The notes under the pieces were generated by a model. The model saw only the letters and a list, made by a program, of their open reading frames with translations. It searched no databases and was not told the origin of the DNA. From NCBI GenBank assembly GCA_018821305.1, contig JAHJMN010000212.1, positions 1 through 57,918 of the forward strand: a stretch of 57,918 nucleotides of DNA, read 5' to 3'. The position numbers and the translations under genes are program-made. This DNA comes from Myxococcota bacterium (lineage in GTDB: Bacteria > Myxococcota_A > Polyangia > HGW-17). Below, piece after piece: positions 9,465-19,451 of this stretch; position 1 is the first letter of the stretch; every line of letters begins with the position of its first letter.

Positions 9465-10403
9465 ATGCATTTGCTTTTCAGAATATACGGTTCGAGAGGA
9501 TCATACCCGATTTCAGGGCAGGATTATTCTCTATTCGGTGGACATACTACATGTTTTTACATGCGTTCCCGCGGTGGTGCTCATCTCACGGTGGATGCAG
9601 GGACAGGAATTCGTCAATTAGGTCACCACCTTATGAGAGAGGGATTTGAGCGTGGAAATGGCGAAATGGCTCTTTTCTTTACGCACACTCATTGGGATCA
9701 CATCATGGGACTCCCATTTTTCAACCCACTTTTTATTGAAGGCAACGTTTTCAATCTTTTCACTGCATCGCTTCCTTATAGCGGGATTCAGGCAATTTTT
9801 TCAGGACTTTTCAAGCCTGATATTTTCCCTGTTCCGTTTGATGATCTTAAAAGTGTGATAAAACTTCAAGAAATTATTCCACCTGTTACCGTTGATTATA
9901 AGGATTTCAGCGTTAGAGCAATGCAGATTAATCACAACAATATATCTCTCGGTTATCGCGTTGAAAACGAAGGAAAATCGGTTACAGTTCTTACAGATAA
10001 TGCAATTATCGAACTTGCAAGAATGGGCGACGGGTTTCCCGATGAATACATTCGGGATGAAAACGGTAAAAAGACAAAGGAACTATCTCAAAAAACACTT
10101 GATTTTATAAGTGAGTACCGAACTAGACAAGCAGAATTTGCTCGTGGTACCGACATTCTTGTTTGCGATACACATTTCACCGTTGATACGATAGTAGGGC
10201 GCGAAACCTGGGGACACTCTACACCGGATGAGGCAATTCGTCTGGCTCATGAATGTCAACCGGGTATGATTATTCTTCATCATCACGATCCCGAAAGACA
10301 TGATAGTCATGTTCTGGAAAAGGAAGAAAAAGTTCGTAAAGCCCTTGATGGTACAGGCATTAAAGTTTTTGCAGGCTACGAAGGCTTTGAGATGGAATTA
10401 TAA
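9465..10403 (+). CDS. MBL-fold hydrolase, class-II phosphodiesterase-like
   Basis: A 312-residue metallo-beta-lactamase-fold hydrolase. It opens with the RIYGSRGSYP / GGHTTC pattern of the PDE class II-like MBL group and has VDAGTGIRQLG, the metal motif HTHWDH (74-79), an Asp in CDTHFT, and GHSTPDEA with a terminal His-rich HHHDPE. Members hydrolyse phosphodiester or related bonds; the substrate here is unknown, cyclic nucleotides being one possibility since a class III cyclase is encoded at 54415. GGAGG directly abuts the ATG at 9465; a TTG two codons later (9471) would be better spaced and is a real alternative. The paralogue at 10519 follows in tandem. Confidence 0.82.
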   Translation: MHLLFRIYGSRGSYPISGQDYSLFGGHTTCFYMRSRGGAHLTVDAGTGIRQLGHHLMREGFERGNGEMALFFTHTHWDHIMGLPFFNPLFIEGNVFNLFTASLPYSGIQAIFSGLFKPDIFPVPFDDLKSVIKLQEIIPPVTVDYKDFSVRAMQINHNNISLGYRVENEGKSVTVLTDNAIIELARMGDGFPDEYIRDENGKKTKELSQKTLDFISEYRTRQAEFARGTDILVCDTHFTVDTIVGRETWGHSTPDEAIRLAHECQPGMIILHHHDPERHDSHVLEKEEKVRKALDGTGIKVFAGYEGFEMEL

Positions 10404-10518
10404 AAAACGATTTTCTTCGGAAATACGTTGTAGATAGAATTTTTACTAAAATTATTCGCTAACGGAAATTCCGGATAGCGATATTTTTAAATTGAGCCTG
10501 AAAAACAGGAGATTTCTG

Positions 10519-11352
10519 ATGCAGATTAGAGTCTGGGGAGCCAGAGGCAGCTACATAAGTCCACAGAAAAGTTATGCTTTATATGGAGGTAACACAACCT
10601 GTCTTGAGCTCACTCACCAAAACGGAAACCGTCTTATTCTTGATGCCGGGAGTGGTATTATTCCATTTGGTCGCAAGGTTGCCATGGAAGAAGATGAAAA
10701 CCGTGAGTACCACTTGCTTTTGACTCATACCCATATAGATCATCTTCAGGGTTTTCCATTTTTTCTCCCTATACATCTGAGAAAGACTAAAATCATCATC
10801 CACTGTGGACGATGGGATGTTACTGCAGTTTCAAAAACATTTGAGCGGCTTTTCGCAACTCAGTATAGTCCTATTAAAACAATTGATAATCTTTCCGCTG
10901 ATATTACTTTCAGCGAAATGGATGAGCTGTCGACTTACAATGTCAATGGTTTTGACGTTACTCCGGTAAGAACTCAGCACACGACTGATACATTTGCATA
11001 TCTTATTAAAGATAATAGTCAGACTTCCTTTGGTTTTATTACGGACCATGAAATTGATGATCCAATAATAAATAATAGACTTATTGAAAGTTTTTCCGGT
11101 TGTAATCTGGTTTTTCATGATGGGCAATTGGATACTCACGAATATTTCGATCAAAAAGGATGGGGGCATTCTACAGTAGAGAAAGCTGTCCGTAACGGAC
11201 TTGATATGTCTGTAGCTCATTTCGGGCTTTTCCACCATTCCCCGGATCATCAGGATACTGTTATTGATTCAATGAAAAGGGATATTCTTTCCGATTATAA
11301 TGAAACAATGAAAATTTCATTTGTGGCAGAAGGACAGCTCTTCGAAGTCTGA
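10519..11352 (+). CDS. MBL-fold hydrolase, paralogue of the upstream gene
   Basis: A 277-residue protein with the same plan as 9465-10403: RVWGARGSY at the N-terminus, YGGNTTC, LDAGSGI, metal motif HTHIDH (70-75), the Asp/His of FHDGQLDTHE, and GWGHSTVEKA with FHHSPDHQD at the end. It is clearly a diverged tandem duplicate, probably with a different substrate. The ATG at 10519 has ACAGGAG seven bases before it; an upstream in-frame TTG is unlikely. It converges on the caspase operon with only two bases between the stop codons, leaving no room for a separate terminator. Confidence 0.84.
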   Translation: MQIRVWGARGSYISPQKSYALYGGNTTCLELTHQNGNRLILDAGSGIIPFGRKVAMEEDENREYHLLLTHTHIDHLQGFPFFLPIHLRKTKIIIHCGRWDVTAVSKTFERLFATQYSPIKTIDNLSADITFSEMDELSTYNVNGFDVTPVRTQHTTDTFAYLIKDNSQTSFGFITDHEIDDPIINNRLIESFSGCNLVFHDGQLDTHEYFDQKGWGHSTVEKAVRNGLDMSVAHFGLFHHSPDHQDTVIDSMKRDILSDYNETMKISFVAEGQLFEV

Positions 11353-11354
11353 TT

Positions 11355-13646
11355 TCAGAAACGGTAGAAGATTCCGGCAGTAACTTCAGGAATTAAACGA
11401 ACTTCTGTTTTATCTGGATTTGTTTCTGCATCATTCAAAACCCATCCTTTAAAAACTGACTCAGGAGCCTGCATATCTCCTTTGTAAGCCAGGACGGACA
11501 GTCCGGCACCTACCATAAACTGTAGATTTGAATTTATATCATAGAAAAGTGAAAATCTCAGAGTGGAAAAAGTGTATAGTTCATCGGATACTGCTTTCTG
11601 CCTCACGAAAGCATCAATATCAAAACTATGAATATCACTTACAGGAATATGAAAGCCAAACCCAGCCCCTGCAAGGATCTTGTCACGATCCCGATCTCCG
11701 CTTTTATTTGAAGAAACAGAATACAGTGTATGCCAGTATTTTCCACCATGTTTGAATTCAACGGTTCCCGCTTTAAAAGTATTTCCCGTGACACCCAGAA
11801 GGTACCTGCCGTTTTTTACAATATTTACAAGTCCGAGTGACCAATCTGATTCTTCAGCAATATTAACAACTCCCAATTGGAATCCTCGTACTTTTTTTGC
11901 TTTATTGATGACACCTAACTGAAAACCGCTTACGTTCTCAGCTTGATTATAGACACCGGATAATTGGAATCCTTTAATATTTTTAGCAATGTTCGAAATG
12001 CCGCTTATTTGTAGACCATGGAGATCCCCTGCTATACTCGCTCCACCGGAAATCTGCAACCCATTGAAGTCAGATGATGTGAGATTGAGGAGGCCGGCAA
12101 TTTGTAATCCTTTTGTACTTCTGTTGCCAATATTTGCAAGGCCGGCAATCTGGATGCCACGGACTTCACCGCCACTGAAATTAAGTAGCCCACTGATAAA
12201 AACGCCACGGGTGCTTCCAAGAGCAAAGTTTGAAAGGCCACTTACAAGAAATCCATTCTGGGAGGTTCCCAGAGAAATATTTCCAAGTCCGGCAGTAGCA
12301 CTTCCTCCAAACGAGCCATATGAAAAATTTAATAATCCACTAACCTGAAAACCAAGAACATTTCCTTCTGCTACATTAAAAAGACCACCGATCTGAAGGC
12401 CACGTACATCTCCCGTGCGAATACTTCCTATGCCTGAAATCTCCATTCCATGAAGAGTGTGAGCAGTTTCATATAAAAGATTCAATGAAAAAATGTTGAT
12501 GGCTGGGATACTTGATAGTCTGTTTGTGCTCATAAAAGGGGTGAAAGAAATGCTGAATGGACTCAAATAGGTTTCGCCGTGATATCCCTTCGAGCGTGAT
12601 GGTTGAAGGGGTTTATTATAAAGGTTGTCTACGTCAAACATGGTTACTTTAACGGTATTTATGACAACACGGCCCTGTCGGACTGTCTTGCCCGTAAAAA
12701 AAGTGACAGTATAAACTCCAGGTTTAAGGGCAAGGACAATGGGGATTTTACCATTTTTTTCAACTTCAGAAACTATATCACCCCGGGCATTGCGTACCAG
12801 AATGCGTCCGGTTACACTGGCAGGAATAAATAGCTTAGATTTTGTTCGTTTTAGTTCTGTTACAACAAGATCTCCAGCGCCAGCGAGTTGAAAAGCATAA
12901 TTCGGATGCTGTGGTCCAGCTTTACTTGATTCAGTTCCAGCGAGTGTTCTGGCAAAAGCATACTGATATGCTTCTCCTACGGTTATCTTCTCATCTTTTG
13001 ACACATCAGCGGCTCCACGGAGTCCGGTAATAAGATAATGAGTGAAATATGAACCTTTAATTTTATCAGACTCCTGAGCAGCCTCCGTCGCAGAGGATGA
13101 TGTGAGGAAAACTTCACCGGTGGCCTGATCCGATGGTCCGGAAAGAAATGAAGGTACCCATTTACCGCCCTTTGTTCTCGTAATGGCTCCGCTGGAGCAC
13201 GAATCAAGAATTCCGATGGTTACATCAGCTTTTACCTCTTTCAGTAGTAACCTCAATTTTTTATATTGAAGTCTTTTCCCTCCCGGTAAAAGCCCCGTAT
13301 CATCAGAGTGCCCGGAATAATAAAAAATCAATTGCACAATATTTCCGCGGGATTTAAGACTGCTGACTGTTTTCTTTAAAATCTCAAAATATTCAATAAT
13401 TTTATCAATGTCAGGCTCTAACAGCATGTATGTACTTGATGGACTTACACCTCCGATTTCCTGAAAGACTTTTGAAACAGCTCTTGTATCTGAATGCGAG
13501 TAAATAAGTTTTACCCGGTCAGAACCGCCATAATTGGAGCCCACCAGAAAAGCAAGTCTAACAACGGGTTTGGATGATTTTGCTCCGGCATTTGTGTGTA
13601 ATGCAGAAATAAAAACAAAGACGGAAATAAAATAAATAGCTTTCAT
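11355..13646 (-). CDS. Exported caspase-like (C14) protease fused to surface-repeat beta-barrel-like domain
   Basis: 763 residues with an N-terminal Sec signal (cleavage about AGA/KS, residue 22). Residues 28-265 form a caspase/C14 p20-like domain: catalytic His113 in FYYSGHSDDTG and Cys150 in ILDSCSSG, both in normal context. Residues about 270-335 look like a PEGA-type beta module. From about 395 to 620 there are roughly a dozen copies of a GLQIxGLxNxA-like repeat, resembling the leptospiral LA_2272-type surface repeat. The C-terminal 140 residues read as alternating beta strands ending in aromatic F (GIFYRF), as in outer-membrane barrels. Substrate and activation trigger are unknown. The ATG at 13646 overlaps the anti-sigma stop (ATGA) and has GGAG upstream. 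Confidence 0.85.
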   Translation of the reverse strand: MKAIYFISVFVFISALHTNAGAKSSKPVVRLAFLVGSNYGGSDRVKLIYSHSDTRAVSKVFQEIGGVSPSSTYMLLEPDIDKIIEYFEILKKTVSSLKSRGNIVQLIFYYSGHSDDTGLLPGGKRLQYKKLRLLLKEVKADVTIGILDSCSSGAITRTKGGKWVPSFLSGPSDQATGEVFLTSSSATEAAQESDKIKGSYFTHYLITGLRGAADVSKDEKITVGEAYQYAFARTLAGTESSKAGPQHPNYAFQLAGAGDLVVTELKRTKSKLFIPASVTGRILVRNARGDIVSEVEKNGKIPIVLALKPGVYTVTFFTGKTVRQGRVVINTVKVTMFDVDNLYNKPLQPSRSKGYHGETYLSPFSISFTPFMSTNRLSSIPAINIFSLNLLYETAHTLHGMEISGIGSIRTGDVRGLQIGGLFNVAEGNVLGFQVSGLLNFSYGSFGGSATAGLGNISLGTSQNGFLVSGLSNFALGSTRGVFISGLLNFSGGEVRGIQIAGLANIGNRSTKGLQIAGLLNLTSSDFNGLQISGGASIAGDLHGLQISGISNIAKNIKGFQLSGVYNQAENVSGFQLGVINKAKKVRGFQLGVVNIAEESDWSLGLVNIVKNGRYLLGVTGNTFKAGTVEFKHGGKYWHTLYSVSSNKSGDRDRDKILAGAGFGFHIPVSDIHSFDIDAFVRQKAVSDELYTFSTLRFSLFYDINSNLQFMVGAGLSVLAYKGDMQAPESVFKGWVLNDAETNPDKTEVRLIPEVTAGIFYRF

Positions 13647-14440
13647 GGGTTACTCCGCTTTTTAATAAGAATTATAGTGGTTTCCTGCGCAATATTGGGA
13701 TTGCTTTTAAAAATACGATTTATATTACTGATTTTCTTGGTATTTTTAACAAAGTTTATAATGTGACTAGTGTTGATGGGTTTATTAGATTGTACAAAAA
13801 TAAATCTTTCAAAGTCTGGAGCATCATCAAGTTCATAAGCTCGGTTGGGGTGTTGTCCCGCAAGGGAAGTAGAATCGCCTTCATGTTCAGGAAAATGAAG
13901 GGTTACATTGGATCTGCCATCCACAGACAATAGAACGCCATAGCCATGATGTGAGTCAATTTTGACCTCGAGAATGTCCCCTTCCTTCGCACTACTGTTA
14001 TTATTGAGCTTCTCTACTTTGCCATTTCTCTGCCGGAAAATCCTGAATCCATTAGATCCCTTAACTCGGTCTTCACCGACATTAAATAATTTAAAATTAT
14101 TGAAATCATTGAAATCACGGTTTGGGGTATGAGTATTATTAAAAACAATAAAGCCTGTTGTAATAATAGTAATAATAACTGTGAATGCACCAGCGAGTTT
14201 CAATGCCGGGAAAGGGCGATTTTTCTTAAGATCAACTTGATTCTTTATATTATTAAGTATTTTTTTGTGGTCTTGTAGTTTATTATAAAATTTATTCTGT
14301 TCAATAATATCATCAATATCTTGTTTAAGTTCAGGATTATTAGATGAAGCAGTTGAGATCTCATTCATAAGATTGATTGGTAACTCGCCGAGAATGTACT
14401 TTTCAATTGTTAGAACTGAGTATTTCTTCAAATTGTTCAT
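13643..14440 (-). CDS. Membrane anti-sigma-like protein with DUF4384-type domain
   Basis: 265 residues. The N-terminal 60 residues (TIEKYILGELP... NPELKQDIDDI) have the layout of anti-sigma domains but lack the HxxxCxxC zinc motif. One membrane segment lies at about 79-100 (ALKLAGAFTVIITIITTGFI). The exported part (about 125-265) has DILEVKIDS, YGVLLSVDGRSNVTLHFPE and FERFIFVQSNKPI, the DUF4384 signature often found next to or fused with bacterial caspases. It overlaps the sigma gene upstream and the caspase gene downstream by four bases each (ATGA). Inferred role: restrains the sigma factor and reads a periplasmic signal, perhaps caspase activity. Confidence 0.78.
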   Translation of the reverse strand: MNNLKKYSVLTIEKYILGELPINLMNEISTASSNNPELKQDIDDIIEQNKFYNKLQDHKKILNNIKNQVDLKKNRPFPALKLAGAFTVIITIITTGFIVFNNTHTPNRDFNDFNNFKLFNVGEDRVKGSNGFRIFRQRNGKVEKLNNNSSAKEGDILEVKIDSHHGYGVLLSVDGRSNVTLHFPEHEGDSTSLAGQHPNRAYELDDAPDFERFIFVQSNKPINTSHIINFVKNTKKISNINRIFKSNPNIAQETTIILIKKRSNP

Positions 14441-14928
14441 TTTACGGCCTCAATACTTTCGAGGAAGTTTTTGAACTGCTTAAGGAGCCTTCTGACCGAT
14501 GAAACTGAAATCGACAGTACTTCGCCAATCTCATCAAGTGTCATTTCATCAATATAATAAAAAAATGCCGCCATTACGGCAGCATCCGTCCCTTCGTTAG
14601 AGAATTTAGAAAAAATCTGTCTGAGAAAAGTTTTTGAATGAGTTTCCGAAAACGAAATCAGTGCTGCCATAAGTTCAGGGTCCTGATGTTCTGGATGACG
14701 CTTTTTATGTCGAATGATATTCAAACATGTATTTGTTGCGATCTTATAAAAAAGAGATGATGGCGCTTTGAAGTCCATTACAGTATATGTCCTCATAATT
14801 TGAATAAATGTTTCCTGCATTGCATCCATTGCAAGATCCTCATCTCCAAGTAGATGTCGGCAGCGCCTGTACACCATTGGCGAATATTTATTATACAAAA
14901 TGTCAAGATTACCATTAACATCGGTCAT
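14437..14928 (-). CDS. ECF-type RNA polymerase sigma factor
   Basis: A compact 163-residue sigma-70 family protein with only regions 2 and 4. Region 2 includes LGDEDLAMDAMQETFIQIM and FKAPSSLFYKIATNTCLNIIR (about 26-80); region 4 includes DEMTLDEIGEVLSISVSSVRRLLKQF (about 127-155), a helix-turn-helix. It heads the sigma / anti-sigma-like / caspase operon, so it probably controls its own operon. The Shine-Dalgarno is weak (GATCAG). No convincing autoregulated ECF promoter could be picked out by eye in the divergent gap to radC. Confidence 0.88.
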   Translation of the reverse strand: MTDVNGNLDILYNKYSPMVYRRCRHLLGDEDLAMDAMQETFIQIMRTYTVMDFKAPSSLFYKIATNTCLNIIRHKKRHPEHQDPELMAALISFSETHSKTFLRQIFSKFSNEGTDAAVMAAFFYYIDEMTLDEIGEVLSISVSSVRRLLKQFKNFLESIEAVK

Positions 14929-15142
14929 ATTCTGATCAGACTTCCACCGGAAAAAACCGGCATCTGTTCTTTAAACACCACAGATGAGAAAAAGTGTCAG
15001 AAAATCGAAAAATTTTTAAAAAAACTTAAATTTTTTAACTTTGGAATGACAAGTTATTGAAATTAAAGAATATATAAAACAAGTTTCCGAGGAACTGCAA
15101 AAATATATTATGAAGATTATGGAAATCGTAAGATAAATCTCG

Positions 15143-15325: not shown

Positions 15326-15937
15326 ATGGAAAATTACTTACAGAATACAGCGGAAATACTGGTTTCACTCATTGACAGCAAAGAAATGAATACTGAAAAA
15401 GCAAGGGAGATAATTGAAAAAGGGGGAGGTCTTGCAAGAATGGGTCGCATGAGCGTCCTGGAAATAGCGCGAAGTGGTTTACTTTCAGAGTCTCAAGCAG
15501 CAAAACTTTCAACCGCGATTGCTCTCGGCAAAAAAGCCTTGTTTGATGAATATAATCCAGAAAGTAGACTTGTGACTTCAAGGGAAGTGTACAGCTATCT
15601 TTTACCAAGAGTCGGTTGGCCCCGGGTGGAGGAGTTCTGGATAATGGGAATTGACGTGAAGCAGCGGCCCGTGAATCTGGAACTGATAGCCAGGGGTGGG
15701 TTTTCCGAGGTAACAGTACCCATGGCAAGTATATTCAGGCAATTAATAATGTGGGATGTACCCCGGGGAATCTGTTGCCATACACATCCAAGTGGAGATC
15801 CGGAACCATCAGCTATGGATATTGGAATTACTGACAGAATTCTAGAAGCTGCCTCTTTTCTGGACATAAAAATAATTGATCACATAATACTCGGTAAAGG
15901 CTGTTATACGAGCCTTGCGGATATGGGTTATGTTTGA
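15326..15937 (+). CDS. radC: RadC family JAB/MPN-domain protein
   Basis: 203 residues. After an N-terminal helix-hairpin-helix-like region (about 1-75) comes a JAB/MPN domain with the metalloprotease-like JAMM motif HTHPSGDPEPSAMD (His152, His154, Asp165) and a partner Glu near 102-103, then IKIIDHIILG, the typical RadC ending. RadC proteins are widespread; despite the name, no DNA-repair activity is firmly established. It is slightly shorter than common RadC (about 220 residues). It has a very strong ribosome site (AAAGGAGG, seven bases before ATG). Its stop overlaps the next gene by eight bases, so the two are likely coupled. Confidence 0.85.
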   Translation: MENYLQNTAEILVSLIDSKEMNTEKAREIIEKGGGLARMGRMSVLEIARSGLLSESQAAKLSTAIALGKKALFDEYNPESRLVTSREVYSYLLPRVGWPRVEEFWIMGIDVKQRPVNLELIARGGFSEVTVPMASIFRQLIMWDVPRGICCHTHPSGDPEPSAMDIGITDRILEAASFLDIKIIDHIILGKGCYTSLADMGYV

Positions 15938-16842: not shown

Positions 16843-18195
16843 TTAATAATATGGAGCTTTTAATATTTGTCCACCGGGCCCTGATGGTTGCCAGTTTTTT
16901 AGTCTCAATGCATTAAACAAAGGGTGATTTGATGGAAAAATGACATAATCCACTCTGTATGAATTCAAAACATCGTACCAGTCTTTCTGCAGGTAGTATA
17001 TTCTGTAATAATCTTTGAAAACTTTTTCTGAGTAGCAATCATTTCTAGCATCCACAAATGGTTTGAATCTTCCTTTAAAATGAAAAATGAATGCTCCTCC
17101 CCACTTATGCGGAACGAAAACATTAATAATTTCTTTCTGATTCAGAGTTTCAGATGCCTTCAGTATTTTGATGGGATAGAACGTGTTGTCAGGTGTCGGT
17201 TTTATAATAAATGAAAACATTACTGTGCTTATAATAAAAACTGTTGATTTCAGGCGGGCACTATAATTGAGAGGCAATTTGTTATCCTGATACAGGTAAT
17301 AAAGAGATGTGATTGCAAACAGGGGTACATTTCTGCGGGCAGTCATTGAATATATGAACAAACCGGCTAGAAGGATGTGTTTCTTAGTCAATTTGCGGGA
17401 AGGAGAACTCTTCAGGAACAATACAGATAGAATAAAGATCATTAGACTTATGTGAATCAGGTTTGGAGGACCCCATTCAATCAAAGAAGAGAGAAATGCG
17501 AAACCTCCTTGCATGTACTGAAAGGAAAGTAGAAGCAATCTGCCTCCGGAAGGATTAATAAGAAGCGCTGAAAAACCAATGAACGCATGGGCAAAGAACC
17601 AGTTAATACGATGTTTTTCTGCTGAAAAAATCAAAAATATAAATACAACAAGTCCCCCAGTTGCACTTCCATGAATATTTGCCCAGAATAGAAAAATTAA
17701 AAATGTGCCAAGGATACCTTTTAATGAGTACAGATTTTTTGAAGTAGAATAAAAAAGGATACCAAGAAGGAATAAATCTCCAGCAAGAAATGGTCTGACG
17801 GCCCAATGAATTGTTAAAAGAAACAGCGCCCCAATTGTAGCTCCTGATGTAATAATATCTTCAGGAGGCCTTGCAATTTTATAGATAATAATGCTGAGTA
17901 ACAAAAAGTGGAATATAAAAAGCCCCCGGAGACCAGAAATATTATAGAATTTGGCAATGATAACATCATATAGCCAGGAATGGTTAACCCAGGGGATTGT
18001 TTCACTTGAAAATGACCAGGAATTTATTTTTAAAACAGATAATTTCTGGAGAGTGTGCTGACCACTGGCAAGTCTCCACCAGACGTCATCAAGTCCGGGA
18101 CTGATTAATAGAGAAAAAATGAAAAGGAATGCAAGGAAAGCGGGGATACTGATATTACTGAGATATCTAGATGTTCTTGTATAGATATCATTCAT
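16843..18195 (-). CDS. Polytopic membrane protein, GT-C glycosyltransferase-like
   Basis: 450 residues with about nine to ten hydrophobic segments. The first loop after TM1 has SPGLDDVWWRLASGQ and then SWSFSSETIPWVNHSWLYDVI, the acidic D/DD plus W-rich pattern seen in lipid-linked sugar transferases of the GT-C type (PMT/ArnT-like superfamily). The C-terminal 130 residues form a soluble domain (KWGGAFIFHFKGRFKPFVDARNDC). Substrate is unknown. Its start codon overlaps the stop of the upstream Lnb/DUF4105 gene (ATGA), making it the third gene of a tight operon. Confidence 0.7.
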   Translation of the reverse strand: MNDIYTRTSRYLSNISIPAFLAFLFIFSLLISPGLDDVWWRLASGQHTLQKLSVLKINSWSFSSETIPWVNHSWLYDVIIAKFYNISGLRGLFIFHFLLLSIIIYKIARPPEDIITSGATIGALFLLTIHWAVRPFLAGDLFLLGILFYSTSKNLYSLKGILGTFLIFLFWANIHGSATGGLVVFIFLIFSAEKHRINWFFAHAFIGFSALLINPSGGRLLLLSFQYMQGGFAFLSSLIEWGPPNLIHISLMIFILSVLFLKSSPSRKLTKKHILLAGLFIYSMTARRNVPLFAITSLYYLYQDNKLPLNYSARLKSTVFIISTVMFSFIIKPTPDNTFYPIKILKASETLNQKEIINVFVPHKWGGAFIFHFKGRFKPFVDARNDCYSEKVFKDYYRIYYLQKDWYDVLNSYRVDYVIFPSNHPLFNALRLKNWQPSGPGGQILKAPYY

Positions 18196-19451
18196 GATCC
18201 ATGGTTTTCCTCATCAGTCTCAGGCACTGATGATGTTTTTGTTTCTGAACCAGAAGAATCAGTTGTCACATCAGGAGGGTCTTGATTTTCAGTTTGAGAG
18301 CTTGTTCTCATATAGAGGCTCCACTGAATATAAAAAATTATGTAACTAAGGAGAATAATATCAGGAAAAGGGAATGTTTTCTGTATGGTAAAAGGACGAA
18401 TAATTATCGTTATAAGTGGGAAAAACATTGAAATGATAATAAATTTCCCAATGATACGCCCTTTCTTGCTACGGAAAAGAATCCAGGGAAGCACTGTGTA
18501 GAGTACGGGCGTAAATGCAAAAATATTAAGATTATATACGCAAATGGAATGATAAAAATGAAGAAAAAGCATTACTACAAAAAGGATAAAAAGTGTCCAG
18601 GAAAAGAAAAAAAGCTCAATTTTCAGGAAAATAATATCATCCCGGTAAATAAAGGGACTTATTAGAAAAAAAAGAGCCATTAGTAAGATAGGGTATATCC
18701 AGATGGGTAAACTTGTGTTAATATTATGATTGATGCCTTCAAAAAATACTGTGCTTTTAACAATCAATTTTTCATGTTTACCAAATGGATTGACAGCTAG
18801 TTTTACTTTTAAAAGTACTTCTTCCAGTAAGAGTGGCAGATAAGCGCCATCCCAACCACTGCGCTTTTCATCCATCACGGATGATAGAACCAACCTGAGG
18901 CCATATTTGATGTCCCATGAGTTTCCTAAAATCCGATCCAGATTTGTTCTCCATGACCCAATTTTCATTTTCTCCAGTTCATACTGAAGATTCCCCTGAG
19001 TCACTTTAGAAATCAAATCCCTCAAGCGTGTAGCACAATTATCACGGAAATGGTCATAAAGATAATGTTTTCCGTCACTTGAGTGTAGGCTTTCCAGCAC
19101 TTCGTAAAGTTGTTTCCCCATTTCCGGGGTCAGGTTGAGGAGATGACCGCGGATGGTACGTTTCTCAGAACTGTAACTATCTAAAAACGCATCAAAGGAA
19201 CGTGAATCAAGGCTGTAAAAAGCACGACCGAAGGCAAAATCTTTTATAAATTTGCTATTCATATTGAAGTAGCCGAAATCATATACTTTTTTGCCTGATG
19301 GAGTTTCAATCATGAAAGCGCTGTGGCCAAATCGTGAAAATACATCGGGCCCTGGCGCAACTATTAAGACCCAAGTTTGATAGTTACCCGACTTGGAATC
19401 GGTAGATGTCGTTGATGTAATTAAGAAAAGAAGTGAAAAAATGTAACTCAT
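18192..19451 (-). CDS. Lnb N-terminal periplasmic domain (DUF4105) membrane protein
   Basis: 419 residues. An N-terminal signal/anchor is followed by a DUF4105/Lnb periplasmic domain (about 25-200) with FGHSAFMIETPSG (His43), KVYDFGYFN and YLYDHFRDNCATRLRD (Cys139). The His/Cys pair and DNC-TR motif resemble an NlpC/P60-like papain fold, so a thiol hydrolase or acyl-transfer role has been suggested for the family. About five membrane helices follow (about 245-385), then an acidic Ser/Thr/Glu-rich tail of about 30 residues. Four-base ATGA overlaps join it to the protease gene before and the GT-C-like gene after. Confidence 0.8.
   Translation of the reverse strand: MSYIFSLLFLITSTTSTDSKSGNYQTWVLIVAPGPDVFSRFGHSAFMIETPSGKKVYDFGYFNMNSKFIKDFAFGRAFYSLDSRSFDAFLDSYSSEKRTIRGHLLNLTPEMGKQLYEVLESLHSSDGKHYLYDHFRDNCATRLRDLISKVTQGNLQYELEKMKIGSWRTNLDRILGNSWDIKYGLRLVLSSVMDEKRSGWDGAYLPLLLEEVLLKVKLAVNPFGKHEKLIVKSTVFFEGINHNINTSLPIWIYPILLMALFFLISPFIYRDDIIFLKIELFFFSWTLFILFVVMLFLHFYHSICVYNLNIFAFTPVLYTVLPWILFRSKKGRIIGKFIIISMFFPLITIIIRPFTIQKTFPFPDIILLSYIIFYIQWSLYMRTSSQTENQDPPDVTTDSSGSETKTSSVPETDEENHGS

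Follow-up and report, generated by a model that had tools for sequence, protein, structure and literature searches.

What does a bacterium do with an exported caspase whose gene sits in one operon with a sigma factor? The role of bacterial caspases has long been unclear, cell death being the usual guess. We examine here a 57,918-nt contig (JAHJMN010000212.1, assembly GCA_018821305.1; henceforth 'the window', meaning the whole of this stretch) from a Myxococcota bacterium (Polyangia; HGW-17), on the minus strand of which three overlapping genes (11355–14928) encode, in order, an extracytoplasmic function (ECF) sigma factor, a membrane protein and an exported caspase-repeat protein. A preliminary description of this operon had imagined the caspase as either the target or the trigger of sigma release. 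Our analysis favours the trigger: we put at roughly 0.6 the probability that this is a trans-envelope signalling operon whose ECF sigma pathway is opened by the caspase, acting as its 'site-1' protease, the cellular location, the cuts, an RseP step and the signal being parts of that pathway that we infer. The idea gains direct sequence support because the caspase and the membrane protein share a short motif, R-x-K-G, and covary in it; cleavage at the motif is predicted.

The caspase, the anti-sigma and their common motif

All three open reading frames are found at the positions first described, and both junctions are indeed four-base overlaps (coordinates given for the operon refer to the minus strand). 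The sigma factor (163 residues; 14437–14928) matches Sigma70_r2 (9.7e-12) and Sigma70_r4 in Pfam and lies above the NCBIfam cut-offs for sigma70-ECF, TIGR02937; the presence of sigma2 and sigma4 alone, in so short a protein, is what marks it as a member of the ECF group. The last gene encodes a protein of 763 residues (11355–13646), which opens with a Sec signal peptide (approximately residues 1–22; 13581–13646; an AlphaFold helix at 2–16) and continues into a caspase domain (approximately residues 28–265; 12852–13565). This domain scores 27.8 bits against a cut-off of 21.4 for the Pfam family Peptidase_C14, is the sole match to that family in its own genome assembly, and in Foldseek retrieves both caspases and metacaspases (E from 5e-5). 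The intact dyad behind the Sec signal, whose conservation the preliminary description had wanted checked, is present: catalytic His113 (13308–13310) and Cys150 (13197–13199) are invariant among 60 aligned members, as are Asp53, Ser111 and Asp148 in the aligned caspase family. Because a histidine pattern was partly relied upon in finding the members, Cys150 provides the cleaner observation of conservation; a set collected by a genome search without patterns agrees on the dyad. The window caspase thus described belongs to family C14 (orthocaspase-like), with a His-Cys dyad in a caspase fold. Orthocaspases have been described as cleaving behind positively charged amino acids (PMC6426788), and the operon caspases retain Asp and Ser residues that align with those of plant metacaspase-4; a specificity for Lys/Arg is predicted.

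The middle protein (265 residues; 13643–14440) has no match in Pfam, or to anti-sigma models, on its own. Because its orthologues do match such models (11/26 the anti-sigmaE model, best 8.1e-6; 9/26 the anti-sigma model), we identify it by homology of its cytoplasmic helical domain as a membrane class I anti-sigma, predicted to bind and inhibit the sigma factor; DUF4384 is matched in 9/26 orthologues (best E 1.5e-7). Working outwards from the N-terminus of its AlphaFold model (predicted local distance difference test score, pLDDT, 83.5), we see a helical domain (residues 9–73, with helices at 9–16, 22–34 and 36–73; 14222–14416), a hydrophobic transmembrane helix (residues 83–101; 14138–14194), a low-confidence linker, and then, from residue 128 on, a beta-sandwich. 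The latter corresponds to a predicted periplasmic Ig/FN3-like ectodomain of DUF4384 type (residues 128–261; 13658–14059), for which Foldseek returned weak Ig/FN3-like matches alone. The zinc motif HxxxCxxC of the zinc-binding anti-sigma (ZAS) subgroup does not occur in the N-terminal domain, placing the protein outside that subgroup. Both the DUF4384-like domain and the lack of zinc residues had been noted earlier; the anti-sigma homology had been missed. A tblastn search of the anti-sigma against plasmids gave no matches. At L037/L086:2629–3894 (L numbers denote individual loci) sigma and anti-sigma occupy a single 421-aa frame, which reflects either a fusion present in nature or a mistake in assembly (ambiguous bases occur in the caspase frame there).

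The R-x-K-G motif occurs at two flexible sites. In the caspase it lies in the loop that follows the catalytic Cys (R157-T-K159-G160-G161; 13164–13178), where it forms a predicted self-cleavage site; in the anti-sigma it forms the hinge between membrane and ectodomain (R125-V-K127-G128; 14057–14068), with the cut predicted between Lys127 and Gly128. The loop after the catalytic Cys is the region of maturation cuts in caspases and metacaspases. In the models, caspase residues 157–172 have a pLDDT below 50 and the hinge borders the low-confidence linker. Conservation at both sites is high: among the 60 caspases K159 and G160 are each found in 60/60, R157 in 57/60 and G161 in 59/60, and at the linker–ectodomain junction of 99 aligned anti-sigma members (some loci being included twice, from two databases) Lys is found in 95/99, Gly in 94/99 and Arg in 76/99.

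The Arg at P3 also varies in step between the partners, with 81 of 114 caspase/anti-sigma pairs having it in both proteins, 9 in the caspase only, 4 in the anti-sigma only and 20 in neither (Fisher P = 7.5e-12, uncorrected for relatedness). This pattern persists within subfamilies, Pro at P2 likewise matches between partners, and, of all column pairs, P3–P3 comes out best from the side of either protein (1/137 and 1/246; with average product correction, rank 44 of 33,702). In a control set of caspase loci chosen by Pfam score alone and inspected in flanks of ~1.5 kb, 21 had a readable loop: the 5/5 with loop KG are all flanked by an ECF sigma and by an anti-sigma whose hinge carries the K-G motif, and the 16/16 without it have neither partner (Fisher 4.9e-5). 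Where a DUF4384 protein is encoded close to a non-KG caspase, the motif is missing from it. In one clade (L058, L059) the sigma-binding domain has been lost and the hinge motif has decayed (SKDD, LFRS), with the ectodomain being kept; a second, tandem anti-sigma in L008 carries RLRG.

A second class of caspase, of the ETHG..DAC type, is paired with DUF4384 membrane proteins at eight further loci (L193, L202, L205, L206, L210, L213, L214 and L223), mostly with PKG-type motifs in both partners and with no ECF sigma detected next door.

The C-terminal region, gene order and promoter

Following the caspase domain, the 763-residue protein carries LA_2272-type GLQIxGLxN repeats (residues 416–597; 11856–12401), scoring 34 bits against the curated NCBIfam cut-off of 25 for LA_2272_repeat; where roughly 12 copies had been claimed, we count at least 10 units with a period of ~16 residues at 416–595. 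The barrel-like end described at the outset is borne out by structure prediction, in that residues 520–763 (11358–12089) are modelled as long beta strands with a Foldseek match to the OmpA transmembrane barrel (probability 1.00, E 0.01, target TM-score ~0.5) and further matches to Ail and to designed transmembrane barrels. The chain terminates in FYRF, its C-terminal Phe included, which resembles an outer-membrane beta-signal. Taken together, signal peptide, long strands, barrel matches and the FYRF terminus suggest that a barrel sits in the outer membrane and that the caspase domain lies in the periplasm. The predicted TM-score (pTM) of the full model is 0.53, and the arrangement of its domains is therefore uncertain. 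A second LA_2272-repeat protein, having no caspase domain and 31% identical to the barrel part, is encoded elsewhere in the same genome (L063:4277–5599; genome G000, contig C213).

The caspase protein is matched in 61/96 genomes of the same class or nearer (its own genome counted), the nearest relative being a 58%-identical protein on a contig titled Myxococcota bacterium, in a genome of the same family as that of the window. A contig scan with the single protein as query found no relatives; a scan of the genomes of 84,980 species with an alignment found 386. Gene order was counted for the best 80 of these 386, which span Myxococcota, Spirochaetota, Fermentibacteria, Chitinispirillaceae, Reinekea and others: sigma, anti-sigma and caspase follow one another in order on one strand in 62/80 loci, and several of the remaining 18 are contig ends. 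The three genes do, as had been surmised, stay together, and their conservation across phyla excludes a chance association. Within the same class, paralogous triads with shorter, different C-termini, overlooked in the preliminary description, are common; since it is the C-terminus in which they differ, we take sigma, DUF4384 anti-sigma and caspase to be the core of the system and the C-terminus to be exchangeable. Caspase-barrel genes with no adjacent sigma or anti-sigma, and with no promoter motif of the kind set out below, occur in Myxococcus/Pyxidicoccus (L115, L116, L126, L136 and L138).

Upstream of the sigma start codon, at a distance of 45 nt, lies an exact match to a predicted autoregulatory ECF promoter, TGACA-N15-GGTGTT (14974–14999). 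The motif T[GA]ACA-N15-GGTGTT, exact or altered by one step, is found upstream of 57/81 sigma genes, with a spacer of 15 nt in 57/57, and the strict motif upstream of 43/81 versus a mean of 0.08 in shuffles; judged by these matches, the operon has its own conserved predicted promoter. A 'private' sigma and the mapping of its promoter motif had been proposed beforehand, the promoter itself having gone unseen. The motif also precedes caspase or anti-sigma genes at loci that lack the sigma gene or have it split off (L039, L048, L051, L053, L058 and L059), and lies upstream of the anti-sigma in L117 and L131.

In the window's own genome a search for the motif gave 6 sites versus 5 in a reversed-pattern control, which is no enrichment, and so we make no regulon claim there; four relatives show enrichment over the reversed control (7:0 in both G022 and G050, 7:1 in G042 and 9:1 in G067), and the genes downstream of the motif in these four mostly start, as judged by eye, with a signal or lipoprotein sequence. 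One copy in the window's own genome (L305; contig C114, ~11210–11235) immediately precedes a gene whose exported product has thrombospondin-like WSECS repeats, a possible second target within a genome-wide count at chance.

Around the operon, two adjoining genes of metallo-beta-lactamase fold (Lactamase_B_2; 9465–10403 and 10492–11352, plus strand) converge with it and were not seen as operon members at other loci. A short RadC-like JAB-domain protein (15326–15937, plus strand), which falls under the NCBIfam RadC cut-off, diverges from it, and further away an Lnb_N periplasmic-domain protein (18192–19451, minus strand) adjoins a membrane protein.

Proposed pathway and alternatives

We propose that the barrel/repeat end of the caspase protein acts as a sensor in the outer membrane, with the caspase domain facing the periplasm, and that the anti-sigma spans the inner membrane, its cytoplasmic helices holding the sigma factor and its DUF4384 ectodomain being carried on a flexible hinge. 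On receipt of a signal the caspase would cleave its own loop behind the catalytic Cys (R-x-K/G-G) and would then cut the anti-sigma hinge where this sequence recurs, at Lys127/Gly128. The remaining stub would become exposed to an intramembrane protease of RseP type, freeing the sigma factor to transcribe its own operon in a positive feedback and also, in some relatives, genes whose products are exported proteins and lipoproteins. M50 proteases have three matches in the window's genome. An evenly balanced proposition, in our estimation, is the broader one that one entire class of exported bacterial caspases is dedicated to ECF sigma pathways, serving as their site-1 proteases, each recognising in the anti-sigma hinge a replica of the site at which it cleaves itself, and with interchangeable C-terminal sensors, of which the outer-membrane barrel is one.

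Several observations weigh against the caspase as site-1 protease. A tree test of the P3 covariation finds two same-branch co-changes (against 5 caspase and 11 anti-sigma changes; P = 0.017), which indicates that much of the covariation lies between subfamilies; we accordingly reject it as fully independent evidence. The caspase motif is retained in L068, L232 and L234 where the hinge reads MG, without Lys, and the caspase-loop KG has been lost in L209 and L222. The barrel match is moderate (TM ~0.5), and some Myxococcus-type loci carry the caspase without a neighbouring sigma or anti-sigma. Lastly, KG at the start of a domain could be structural. Taken to its conclusion, this last point would make the motif no more than a structural turn, found where the ectodomain begins and again in the caspase loop, with the two proteins unconnected by proteolysis; the modest phylogeny-aware support and the MG-hinge group fit such an account, which we nevertheless find improbable, given that both sites fall in low-confidence segments and that the DUF4384 proteins beside non-KG caspases are without the motif.

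Were the caspase no more than an envelope effector made as part of the sigma regulon, the anti-sigma would be cut by another protease, DegS-like or a signal peptidase. Operon targets of ECF sigmas are common, caspase genes separated from the sigma gene have a sigma-type promoter immediately before them, and the predicted targets in relatives are exported proteins, all of which speak for this arrangement; we judge it unlikely, as it leaves unexplained both why the anti-sigma hinge repeats the caspase loop motif and covaries with it, and why loop KG is confined to caspases with an anti-sigma partner. The motif data would serve equally well for a pseudo-substrate, in which the ectodomain plugs the caspase active site via R-x-K-G until a signal parts them, information then passing from anti-sigma to caspase. 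Since the L058/L059 clade, from which the sigma-binding domain is gone, still has the ectodomain, the membrane helix and the caspase, the ectodomain appears to have a caspase-related job apart from sigma; yet in those same loci the motif has decayed, tying it to sigma control, and we regard the pseudo-substrate as rather unlikely, if marginally less so than the structural turn. A module for cell death or defence, with sigma release turning on a killing caspase, seems to us highly improbable. Bacterial caspases are often discussed in connection with cell death, and for four M. xanthus caspases in sigma operons a role in autolysis has been speculated upon (PMC3501461); the caspase here is instead exported, carries a barrel-like end and is transcribed together with the protein that regulates it, and the promoter-linked genes of relatives resemble those for envelope proteins. 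PADLOC gave no defence-system match for the operon, which disfavours the defence variant.

Should the caspase indeed prove to be the site-1 protease, a caspase would be added to the few proteases by which ECF sigma pathways are opened, and these bacterial caspases would acquire a concrete job. A large group of exported caspases now has a candidate substrate and a predicted site of cutting in it, together with a predicted promoter and an output for reporter assays, so that its function becomes directly testable.

Comparison with known systems

Operons of sigma-70 and metacaspase genes were reported in 2012 by Asplund-Samuelsson and colleagues from Myxococcus, Anaeromyxobacter, Haliangium, Sorangium, Ralstonia and Fibrobacter (PMC3501461). 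Like that of the window they join a sigma and a caspase gene, and they probably include members of the present family, so that the operon cannot be called 'undescribed', as it first was; the anti-sigma, the export/barrel architecture, the promoter, the cleavage motif and the mechanism, all present or proposed here, are absent from that account. A search of a collection of open-access papers (subscription papers and preprints lying outside it) yielded none that brings a caspase together with a membrane anti-sigma and an ECF sigma in the envelope. Caspase genes also adjoin an ECF sigma in the Caspase/EACC2/ECF sigma/DUF1822 systems (PMC8195603), which, in the available part of that account, have EACC2 and TPR partners and no reported DUF4384 anti-sigma.

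The FecA/FecR/FecI system likewise unites an outer-membrane barrel, an inner-membrane regulator and an ECF sigma in one cluster, the barrel of the window operon being a predicted one. FecA, however, is a TonB receptor without a protease domain, and with neither a TonB nor a FecR domain in the annotation of the window operon we rejected a reading of it as FecIRA. Closer in logic is the sigma-E pathway of RseA/DegS/RseP, in which, as we would expect here, a membrane anti-sigma is cut first in the periplasm and then in the membrane, and in which the sigma is, as predicted here, autoregulated; its site-1 protease is a PDZ serine protease, whereas the candidate in the window is a caspase joined to a barrel.

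The nearest functional precedent, by analogy, is the Craspase of type III-E CRISPR, where the caspase-like Csx29 relieves the inhibition of an ECF sigma, CASP-sigma, by cutting its inhibitor Csx30 (PMC10028731). In both cases a protease of the caspase superfamily would cut the inhibitor of an ECF sigma, the cut being a predicted one here. Domain annotation of the operon and of the genes closest to it shows no Cas7-11, TPR-CHAT or Csx30. Craspase is cytoplasmic, triggered by RNA and directed at a soluble inhibitor; the window system has an exported protease, a membrane anti-sigma and no CRISPR parts and, if our proposal is correct, would represent the envelope counterpart of the Craspase logic.

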